In this document: piece after piece, positions 24,937 through 40,867 of the stretch | Layout of the letters: every line of letters begins with the position of its first letter | How positions within the stretch are numbered: position 1 is the first letter of the stretch | From: Desulfurobacterium indicum | GTDB lineage: Bacteria; Aquificota; Aquificia; Desulfurobacteriales; Desulfurobacteriaceae | Direction of reading: 5' to 3' | Length of the DNA: 46,129 nt | NCBI RefSeq assembly: GCF_001968985.1 | Contig: NZ_MOEN01000011.1 | Location: 1 to 46,129 of the forward strand | Position numbers and translations under genes: made by a program | The notes under the pieces: generated by a model | What the model was told of the DNA's origin: nothing | The model's database searches: none | The model's input: only the letters and a program-made list of their open reading frames with translations

Positions 24937-24955
24937 TTAACTTTTCTGTAAATAG

Positions 24956-24996
24956 AAAAAGCCCGGTGTGAGCCGTTTCTACCGCACCGGGCTTTA
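24956..24996. terminator. Bidirectional terminator hairpin between smc and the cold-shock gene
   Basis: GCCCGGTG (24961-24968), a 16-base loop, CACCGGGC (24985-24992), flanked by A5 on the left and TTT on the right. The better T run (TTTTTC) is on the minus strand, so it chiefly ends the csp transcript and may also end smc. Its minus-strand loop contains AGAAACGGC, complementary to the loop of the hairpin upstream of csp. Confidence 0.85.
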
Positions 24997-25012
24997 ATCT
25001 TTGTAAATTAAC

Positions 25013-25219
25013 TTAAGCTTTTTCTACGTTTATAGCTTTAAGTCCTTTATCACTTTCTGTGATGTCAAAAATAACTCTTTCGCCTTCTTCTATTGTTTTA
25101 AATCCTTCGCCATTAATTCCTGTGTAATGAACGAAAACATCATGTCCGTCATCTGTTGTGATGAAACCGTATCCTTTGCTTGAGTCAAACCACTTTACTG
25201 TTCCTGTAAATCTTTCCAT
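25013..25219 (-). CDS. Cold-shock domain protein (CspA family)
   Basis: A 68-aa single-domain RNA chaperone. It starts [20 protein letters not shown] and has both nucleic-acid motifs: RNP1 (KGYGFI) and RNP2 (VFVHY). Members of this family bind single-stranded RNA and, in E. coli, melt hairpins and act as antiterminators. The gene has an AGAGAGG site. It lies between two hairpins, one upstream in the leader with a terminator-like T tail and one downstream, whose loops are complementary. No promoter-like sequence is seen between the upstream hairpin and the start codon, so transcription has to come through that hairpin. Confidence 0.96.
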
Positions 25220-25250
25220 GTTAAAAAACCTCTCTAAGTTAGTGTTCTTG

Positions 25251-25297
25251 AAATGAAAAAGGGCCTTGAAAGCAGAAACGGCACACCTTCAAGGCCC
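25251..25297 (-). promoter_or_regulatory. Terminator-like leader hairpin upstream of the cold-shock gene
   Basis: A perfect 10-bp stem (25261-25270 with 25288-25297) and a 17-base loop that reads GGTGTGCCGTTTCTGCT on the minus strand, followed by TTTTTCATTT. It is formally an intrinsic terminator about 30 nt before the csp start codon. It could end the Wzz-like gene's transcript, but because the best csp promoter lies on the far side it would also act as an attenuator of csp. Confidence 0.7.
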
Positions 25298-25316
25298 GTC
25301 CTTTCACTTCATACGT

Positions 25317-25345
25317 TAAGTTATGAGATTATTTTCCTTTGTCAA
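25317..25345 (-). promoter_or_regulatory. Candidate promoter for the cold-shock gene
   Basis: Minus-strand consensus TTGACA (25345-25340) starts four bases after the stop codon of the Wzz-like gene. A weak -10 (AACTTA/TAACTT near 25317-25323) follows at 16-17 bp. The predicted leader is nearly 100 nt and includes the hairpin at 25261-25297. Confidence 0.45.
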
Positions 25346-26162: not shown

Positions 26163-26196
26163 AAAAAAAAAGGGGGGACCTAAGCCCCCCTTTTTT
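26163..26196. terminator. Bidirectional terminator downstream of the porin gene
   Basis: GGGGGG (26172-26177), loop ACCTAAG, CCCCCC (26185-26190). A run of A residues lies on the left and T6 on the right, so there is a T tail in both directions. It separates the porin gene from the Wzz-like gene on the minus strand. Confidence 0.9.
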
Positions 26197-26214: not shown

Positions 26215-27240
26215 TTAGAATTTAAGTGTTAGTTTAAGCTCACCCTGATAATCAAGTTTTGCACTTGGGAGATAAAGTCCTGCTTGAATACACAAATTCT
26301 TATCATACTGATATTTAGCCTTGAGGTCAACTTCATGTTCGCTGCTGTAAACACCAGTATTGTCACCATCAAAGTTTACGTAAGCAGCGCTCAAAGTCAC
26401 TTTATCCATAGGCTTAACGCTTCCTTCTACAGTGAGAATTTTAGGATTTACAAAGTTTCCATTGTCGTAATCAAGGACTTCTGCATAATCATAGTCCGGG
26501 AAACCTGTAGCTGTAACGTAGTTAGCTACGAATCCGTCTTTGTAAACGTCATATCCAATTTTAGCTCCAAACATTCCAGCATCAAGAGATGCACCTACGC
26601 CGTAGAATTTTCCGTTGTTATCTGTTCCTTTTGTTTTAAGGTAAGCAGCTTCAGCTCTGAAGCCTACTTTTCCGAAATCTGTTGCAACAGCTGGAGCAAA
26701 TTTTGCATAAGCAAGATTTATGTCGTTAGCATCTTGGTAGAGATCAACAAGTTCGTATGCACCGTCAACGCCAAGTGCTTTAAGGTTACCCTCAAAAGCA
26801 CCTACTGCCCATGTTGTAGCGCTTCCTCTTTCTTCTGCTGTTCCTGCAAGTGCAAGTCCGTAATCTGTGTTGTATCCTGCGATTACAGCGTCAAGAGTAG
26901 CATCCATAATCTTGCTGTCGCCGAATACGATATCCTGGTAACCTACTTTTGCAAGAAGATTAGGCATGTTGAAAAGGTTGTTTACCTGGAAGTAACCTTC
27001 ATCAATTGTAAAGTTCATCTTATCATCGTCTGCGAGAAACCTTACATGAGCCGTAATGTCATCGTTTACTTTTGCATTAACCTGAACCTTTACTTCTACA
27101 GAATGGTTGTAGTCTGTCTGGTTGTCAGTTGTGATAGTTGTTTTAATTTGGCCACCTACGTTTACTTCTGTAGCTTGTGCAGGAATTGCAAATGCAGCTA
27201 CAAGTCCCATAAGAGTTACTGCTGTGAGTGCTTTTCTCAT
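26215..27240 (-). CDS. Outer-membrane porin-like beta-barrel protein
   Basis: A 341-aa protein from the ATG at 27240, which follows a GGGAGG site and begins a clear signal peptide (MRKALTAVTLMGLVAAFAIP, cleavage after AQA). The upstream in-frame extension to 27360 has no such site and crosses the promoter. The mature protein is a series of amphipathic strands (VNVGGQIKTTITTDNQ, HSVEVKVQVNAKV, ending LDYQGELKLTLKF with the terminal phenylalanine required for barrel assembly). It is acidic and Gly/Tyr rich. It has its own promoter and terminator, so it is probably monocistronic and abundant. The selectivity of the pore is unknown. Confidence 0.85.
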   Translation of the reverse strand: MRKALTAVTLMGLVAAFAIPAQATEVNVGGQIKTTITTDNQTDYNHSVEVKVQVNAKVNDDITAHVRFLADDDKMNFTIDEGYFQVNNLFNMPNLLAKVGYQDIVFGDSKIMDATLDAVIAGYNTDYGLALAGTAEERGSATTWAVGAFEGNLKALGVDGAYELVDLYQDANDINLAYAKFAPAVATDFGKVGFRAEAAYLKTKGTDNNGKFYGVGASLDAGMFGAKIGYDVYKDGFVANYVTATGFPDYDYAEVLDYDNGNFVNPKILTVEGSVKPMDKVTLSAAYVNFDGDNTGVYSSEHEVDLKAKYQYDKNLCIQAGLYLPSAKLDYQGELKLTLKF

Positions 27241-27284
27241 CCTTAAAAACCTCCCTTCTTTTTGAAGTTTATTGTCGGTATCAA

Positions 27285-27314
27285 AATTTACCATTTTAAC
27301 CTTTCCTGTGTCAA
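27285..27314 (-). promoter_or_regulatory. Promoter of the porin gene
   Basis: Minus-strand TTGACA (27314-27309), 18-bp spacer, TAAATT (27290-27285), giving a leader of roughly 35-40 nt before the ATG at 27240. Confidence 0.6.
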
Positions 27315-27360
27315 GAAGTAAATTATTAAAGATTCTTAACAATTTTAACATATTATCCAA

Positions 27361-40156: not shown

Positions 40157-40867
40157 TCATATACAATTTAGGAAGTTTATGTCTTTTCGTTGTTTTATGT
40201 TGTATTTAACCATTATGTACTTAATTGCTGCAGGATCAAAAATGTATGTTGTTCCATCTTGCCATAAAAGCAGAATTTTTTTTAAGTTTTTAAGCTTTGC
40301 TGCGGGACTTCCTTTCCTTATACATAGCAAATATTTTACTTTTCCTATATTTTCTATTATTTTATAAGATTTTAGAGGTTCCTTAAAGTATATTCCATGT
40401 TTTTTTAACAGCTCCCGAAAAGAGTCTATGTAGACGGTGTTGTTATCAGCAAAGTATCTATATAAAGGGGTGTTGAGGGCATAGAATAGGTTTGGTGCTG
40501 GTGAATTTGTTTTTGTCATTTTGAATATTGCAGGAGATTTTTTCCCTACAGAGCAGATTTTTATCCAGCTGTTGTCTATCGCTTTTATAAAATCATAGGT
40601 TATATTGTCCACAATTATGACGTTATATTTGCTTAGGTTTAATAATTTTATAAATTCAGCACTATTCTTGCTGTAATTAAGGGTTATTATGCTGTTTTTT
40701 ATGTTTAACTTTCCGTAGGCTTTCTCTGCATAAAAAGGCAAAAGTATATACTTGTTTTCTGCAAGTATGTTAATCTCCGTGTATTCTTTGCATCCGGAGA
40801 ATAGCAGAAATGTAGCGGTTAATATAAGGAAACCCGCTATTACAGCAAGTCCTTTTTTTTCGCTCAT
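40157..40867 (-). CDS. Lipoprotein resembling a periplasmic solute-binding protein
   Basis: A 236-aa protein from the ATG at 40867, which is better spaced from AAAGGTG than the GTG two codons earlier. The N-terminus has a lipoprotein signal with lipobox (LTATFLLFSGC), so the mature protein is lipid-anchored at the Cys. The rest alternates short strands and helices, with INILAENKYILLPFYAEKA and YNVIIVDNITYDFIKAI, consistent with a compact NMT1/THI5-like binding fold, but the family match is not certain. It lies between the Fe-S protein and the two-TM sensor, with a gap of 19 nt to the sensor gene. A role as the ligand-binding partner of that sensor is inferred from position. Confidence 0.65.
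   Translation of the reverse strand: MSEKKGLAVIAGFLILTATFLLFSGCKEYTEINILAENKYILLPFYAEKAYGKLNIKNSIITLNYSKNSAEFIKLLNLSKYNVIIVDNITYDFIKAIDNSWIKICSVGKKSPAIFKMTKTNSPAPNLFYALNTPLYRYFADNNTVYIDSFRELLKKHGIYFKEPLKSYKIIENIGKVKYLLCIRKGSPAAKLKNLKKILLLWQDGTTYIFDPAAIKYIMVKYNIKQRKDINFLNCI

Follow-up and report, generated by a model that had tools for sequence, protein, structure and literature searches.

In the ColE1 RNAI/RNAII kissing complex, two RNAs meet in trans through hairpins with complementary stems and short complementary loops. A contact between the two ends of a single mRNA is described for icaR of Staphylococcus aureus; in the passages cited here, the UCCCCUG motif base-pairs at the Shine-Dalgarno region and interferes with the start of translation, and this 5'-3' contact is termed a singular example in bacteria (PMC3868564). 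Passages on the cspA mRNA of S. aureus describe a long hairpin at its 5' end (PMC3386247). The Escherichia coli cspA thermosensor, another structured cold-shock mRNA, is represented in Rfam by the cspA thermoregulator family RF01766.

The locus described here lies in a window of 46,129 nt, the whole stretch of DNA that was analysed, from the 1.6 Mb genome of Desulfurobacterium indicum (contig NZ_MOEN01000011.1). Its family, the Desulfurobacteriaceae, consists of heat-loving vent bacteria. The gene csp1 (25013–25219, minus strand) encodes a 68-aa cold-shock (CSD) protein (Pfam CSD, E 6e-27), with a Wzz-like gene upstream and smc, convergent with csp1, on the other side. A putative −35 element, TTGACA (25340–25345, minus strand), lies 4 nt past the point where the Wzz-like gene stops, and reading the sequence with a spacer of 16 gives a putative −10 element, TAACTT, at 25318–25323 on the same strand. 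TTGACA was also present in the leaders of loci L010 and L012; the leader of L011 is cut by the contig end. The position of this promoter candidate right after the Wzz-like stop codon, as given in the preliminary description, was thus borne out, but the promoter scan of the window did not report the site at 25345–25340. A separate palindrome at 26172–26190 forms a strong hairpin that resembles a terminator and has T tracts on either strand; it lies between the 26215–27360 frame and the Wzz-like gene.

Two hairpins flank csp1 on the minus strand. The leader hairpin is GGGCCTTGAAGGTGTGCCGTTTCTGCTTTCAAGGCCCTTTTT (about 25256–25297); its core, together with the U-tract that the csp strand carries there, occupies 25255–25299, as judged from the match to the leader covariance model R1 and the stem-pair count; the window leader scored 60.2 bits with R1, a model of which the window sequence is itself part. 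When the L009 (window) and L012 leaders are folded to their MFE structures, the hairpin extends over 25250–25310 (minus strand), and the U-tract and CATTTC on its 3' side pair with the 5'-terminal GAAGTGAAAGG. The leader hairpin ends only about 40 nt short of the ATG, and a GAGAGG stretch lies shortly 5' of the ATG. The 3' hairpin AAAGCCCGGTGCGGTAGAAACGGCTCACACCGGGCTTTTTC (about 24955–24996, minus strand) resembles an intrinsic terminator and is located between the convergent csp1 and smc genes. The leader loop motif GCCGTTTCT (25274–25282, minus strand) and its complement in the 3' loop, AGAAACGGC (24972–24980, minus strand), form the 9-nt loop-loop match already noted, which can be read directly in the sequence. 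The proposed extension of this match through GGTGT/ACACC was not conserved: ACACC is missing in the other three of the four csp1 loci, and its copy in the window runs into the stem of the terminator.

The minus strand of the window gave 148 hairpins and 237 hairpin pairs at most 500 nt apart, and the csp pair was the sole one with at least nine complementary loop bases. The plus strand (234 hairpins, 645 pairs) showed two such pairs, namely the csp pair read backwards and an unrelated, weak-stemmed, A/T-rich 10-nt match. The latter joins two weak hairpins at 40305–40322 and 40821–40831 (plus strand), whose loop complementarity is probably due to chance. A loop match within one window is suggestive, and if alone would be a mild curiosity and no proof; the case rests on conservation.

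A search with csp1 detected 23 csp loci in 19 of the 24 genomes of the order. The preliminary description had made conservation of the loop match in relatives a point to be checked, and in all 23 loci the leader loop contained GCCGTTTC and the 3' loop GAAACGGC. The loci fall into two paralogues, csp1 (4 loci, all in the window's genus) and csp2 (19 loci), and the window's genus carries both, with four of the 19 csp2 loci. A DEAD-box helicase frame was present 88–180 nt past the csp2 stop codon in 19/19 loci, and after csp1 in 0/4. Many of the loci are closely related (21 distinct leader rows among 23) and do not represent independent events. Five genomes gave no csp match: three belong to the own family, with completeness of 62–89%, and two to another family, with completeness of 64% and 95%. 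In G018, an own-family genome, a contig breaks off precisely at a 3' hairpin of the csp2 type, so its csp gene is probably missing from the assembly. Model R2, built on the csp2 3' hairpins, gave matches in 20 of the 24 genomes of the order, corresponding to the 19 csp2 loci and G018, together with weak reverse readings in three; over these 24 genomes R2 did not report the csp1 terminators.

Among the systems introduced above, icaR is the nearest working precedent, with a different target and geometry. Like icaR (PMC3868564), the csp loci have conserved complementary segments on both sides of the gene, here an 8-mer pair at every locus; unlike icaR, in which the 5' partner is the Shine-Dalgarno region, the match at csp is between two hairpin loops and is conserved family-wide. 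The csp leader loop starts 58–67 nt before the ATG in the 23 loci and does not cover the Shine-Dalgarno region. When Rfam was run over the window, no family reached its gathering score. RF01766 scored 41.4 bits against a gathering score of 78, its best alignment falling on the coding sequence, and in nine of ten other loci tested it scored 28.6–63.3 bits, also below 78, the top score coming from another family of the phylum. The csp loci are like the E. coli cspA thermosensor in being structured cold-shock mRNAs, but unlike it they score below gathering. As in ColE1 RNAI/RNAII, two hairpins bear short complementary loops; unlike there, the stems in csp2 show no relationship to each other, and the two hairpins lie on either side of a single gene. 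The long hairpin of S. aureus cspA resembles the leader hairpin of csp1 in its extended form, but the passages on that mRNA mention no 3' partner hairpin (PMC3386247), whereas Desulfurobacteriaceae csp has one. Among the open-licence PMC papers listed, no title or opening of an abstract concerned the Desulfurobacteriaceae csp element, which is weak evidence of absence.

In the alignment of the 23 leaders (21 of them distinct), TGCCGTTTCT was invariant in every row. The leader stem of 14 pairs showed 98.3% of cells paired, and two-sided change was observed at 7 of the 14 pairs, compared with 4.3 on average in shuffled controls and 0–3 when the stem was slid. For the csp2 3' hairpin, aligned over 19 rows, 18 pairs are predicted, eight with two-sided change, around the 9-nt loop TGAAACGGC. 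The leader loop is UGCCGUUUC, and the 3' loop is UGAAACGGC, or UAGAAACGGC in csp1. The 9-nt loops of the leader and of the csp2 3' hairpin each consist of one 5' U and eight bases matching the partner loop; in the csp1 3' loop a ninth complementary base is added in 4/4 loci, giving at least nine matched bases.

Around the identical loop 8-mer, the csp1 and csp2 3' hairpins showed a mean identity of 0.21 over 36 nt, which is the chance level, compared with 0.66 within csp2, 0.79 within csp1 and 0.65 between the csp1 and csp2 leader flanks. By combining these chance-level 3' flanks with the failure of R2 to report the csp1 terminators, it follows that one loop is borne by two dissimilar 3' hairpins. 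The complementarity of the loops looks selected, judging from this pattern in the sequences. Covariation between the two loops, which the preliminary description had proposed as a test, has no variation to draw on: 0/8 loop pairs vary over the 23 loci, against 7/14 changed leader stem pairs (Fisher p 0.022, a rough value for related sequences). The invariance of the loops therefore gives no compensatory proof of loop-loop pairing. Another complementarity, between GACGGAAAC in the csp2 leader and GTTTCCGTC, which belongs to the 5' arm of the 3' hairpin of csp2, was observed in 9/19 loci (L013–L018, L020, L022 and L023). It was not taken as a conserved feature; in L021 another stretch gives a match of 9 bases, and the other nine loci reach 4–6.

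The distribution of the hairpins was followed outside the csp loci. AGAAACGGC occurs 34 times in the genome against 35 for the reversed-pattern control, so the word is not enriched; by word counts alone, GAAACGGC occurs 106 times against 86. The flanking-stem test covered 32 of the 34 AGAAACGGC places, those on contigs C39 and C40 being left out. Strong stems (11 pairs, 6–8 of them G-C) were found at three places, each of them next to a csp gene (two in the window, one at csp2), and the other 29 places had 1–10 stem pairs with at most four G-C pairs. A generic repeat or terminator loop was rejected on these grounds. The preliminary description had offered as its alternative an unrelated palindromic repeat; a many-copy repeat of this kind disagrees with the covariance-model searches, in which strong matches were found only at csp genes, the one exception being the csp2-type 3' hairpin at the contig end of G018.

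R1 was run on 136 genomes of the phylum, with stricter filters above 40 genomes and E values up to 0.1. Matches were obtained in 52 genomes, 33 of them outside the own family, and those with at least 60 bits were exactly the 23 own-family csp leaders. The next-best matches were the same leader hairpins and two csp1 terminators, all read in reverse; outside the own family no match exceeded 32.5 bits, and elsewhere in own-family genomes R1 gave weak matches of at most 23 bits. The csp motif was absent in the fetched stretches of 11 outside-family R1 matches (L071–L081). An 18-base leader pattern searched in genome contigs returned 20 stretches. Nine were from Desulfurobacteriaceae and lay without exception at csp; the other 11 came from different groups, where three forward frames from −300 to +700 nt contained no csp motif. 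A CSD match was present in 87 phylum genomes outside the own family; in the 20 csp regions taken from other families, of which 18 gave a parsed csp frame, neither 8-mer was found. In viral contigs the 3' hairpin pattern gave one matching stretch. Among the genomes searched, the module is narrow and restricted to csp genes of Desulfurobacteriaceae. In six of the 20 regions from other families (L086, L088, L090, L091, L098 and L099), which come from another family, the csp leaders have a different hairpin in common, containing GGAGGGCGCC.

Folding of the stretch from leader to 3' hairpin in the 23 loci predicted that both loops are presented single-stranded in their hairpins. At 37 °C the mean unpaired probability was 0.90 for the leader loop and 0.82 for the 3' loop (lowest loci 0.74 and 0.73), and at 20 °C it fell to 0.80 and 0.78, respectively. 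The closing stem of the 3' hairpin had a probability of only 0.64–0.75 at 37 °C in L013, L016, L018 and L023. Nested models, which cannot show a kissing contact, gave 0.000–0.025 for pairing of one 8-mer to the other. The computed energy of the 8-mer duplex was −17.9 kcal/mol at 4 °C, −4.8 kcal/mol at 70 °C and −2.9 kcal/mol at 80 °C, and four example hairpins showed −9.1 to −15.4 kcal/mol at 70 °C and −5.8 to −11.8 kcal/mol at 80 °C. A temperature-graded tether is physically plausible and a reasonable proposal from these models, because the hairpins stay stable while the 8-bp loop duplex weakens with heat. At a high growth temperature, eight pairs bridging about 300 nt may be weak.

The preliminary description had suggested that attenuation in the leader is controlled through a kissing contact between the leader and the terminator that ends the transcript. 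This idea does not agree with the order of synthesis, because the 3' loop is made about 300 nt after the polymerase passes the leader. The 3' loop appears after the polymerase has cleared the leader, and therefore it cannot take part in a cis decision on leader termination. With cis attenuation fitting this order poorly, the readings left are a tether in the finished RNA or a terminated leader that acts in trans. The best reading, put forward tentatively at a probability of about 0.45, is a family-specific 5'-3' kissing-loop tether of the csp mRNA that is plausibly temperature-graded. From the gene order, both 8-mers would lie on one RNA. The leader loop and the 3' loop would pair in cis over at least eight bases and so tie both ends of the csp cistron; the contact would tighten on cooling, with both hairpins still folded, and the closed form might prolong the life of the csp mRNA or set the csp:helicase ratio at the 3' hairpin. 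A bolder version, which we consider rather improbable, is a family-wide kissing-loop thermosensor, in which cold would clasp the loops of the csp mRNA, the ring-like cistron would be spared from decay, the output of the operon's DEAD-box helicase would be altered and the paralogues would cross-talk via their identical loops.

The loops may instead be recognised by a protein, the simplest candidate being Csp itself on the pyrimidine-rich leader loop in an autoregulatory circuit, with the 3' loop as a decoy or shield. The absolute invariance of the loops exceeds what pairing alone needs, and since the loops never vary while stem pairs do, an extra constraint, from a protein or a third RNA, likely acts on them. 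UGCCGUUUCUG contains a YYR motif, and E. coli CspA is said to favour short RNAs with this motif (PMC9947658). Protein recognition alone leaves unexplained an exact 8-nt complement carried on the dissimilar csp1 and csp2 3' stems, and we regard it as rather unlikely. Ordinary parts, that is, a 5' stabilising hairpin and an intrinsic terminator whose loops came to resemble each other by duplication or as an inverted palindromic repeat, are another candidate explanation, and a long RNase III-processed 5' hairpin is described in the passages on S. aureus cspA mRNA (PMC3386247). For csp1, the complementarity possibly derives from an inverted copy, because two of the four terminators (G012 and G014) read backwards match the leader model (E 5e-11 and 1e-8); in both, the complementarity to the leader covers 14 nt. 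In csp2, however, leader and 3' hairpin share no complementary stretch longer than the 8-mer in 18/19 loci (L013 has a 9-nt A/T stretch), and the csp2 3' hairpins are therefore not inverted copies of the leader. The loops outlast the stems, and these genomes contain no further strong copies, which makes an origin from ordinary parts quite unlikely.

The leader hairpin might also be a terminator, with the freed leader RNA working as a trans-acting RNA whose target is the 3' hairpin of either csp or its paralogue, and altering helicase readthrough or RNA decay. Most leaders show a stem of up to 14 pairs followed by a U-tract, and the presence of the same loops in csp1 and csp2 of one genome would permit cross-talk; on the other hand, the U-tract is broken in L018 (GGCTATTT) and several loci have only four T. 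The csp2 leaders contain upstream GAAGGCAG, a near-copy of the 5' arm of the leader hairpin that complements its 3' side and is possibly an antiterminator, judging by the sequence. This element is invariant in 19/19 csp2 leaders (L013–L031), 25–143 nt 5' of the leader loop and shortly past the putative promoter. Its complementarity to the 3' arm reaches at least 8 bases in 17/19 loci, 7 in L031 and 4 uninterrupted bases in L018, so the element does not track the hairpin changes in L018 and L031; an 8-bp antiterminator would also be much weaker than the competing hairpin. The csp1 leaders are without such an attenuator-like feature, and instead their hairpin is extended towards the putative transcript start in the two folded loci. 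We consider a trans-acting leader unlikely.

If the kissing-loop tether is true, the csp loci would represent a compact natural system in which the loop-loop pairing itself is possibly the thermometer. The contact would be one conserved across a family of thermophiles, at the gene most tied to temperature, and the csp-helicase pair would be marked as possibly under shared RNA control.
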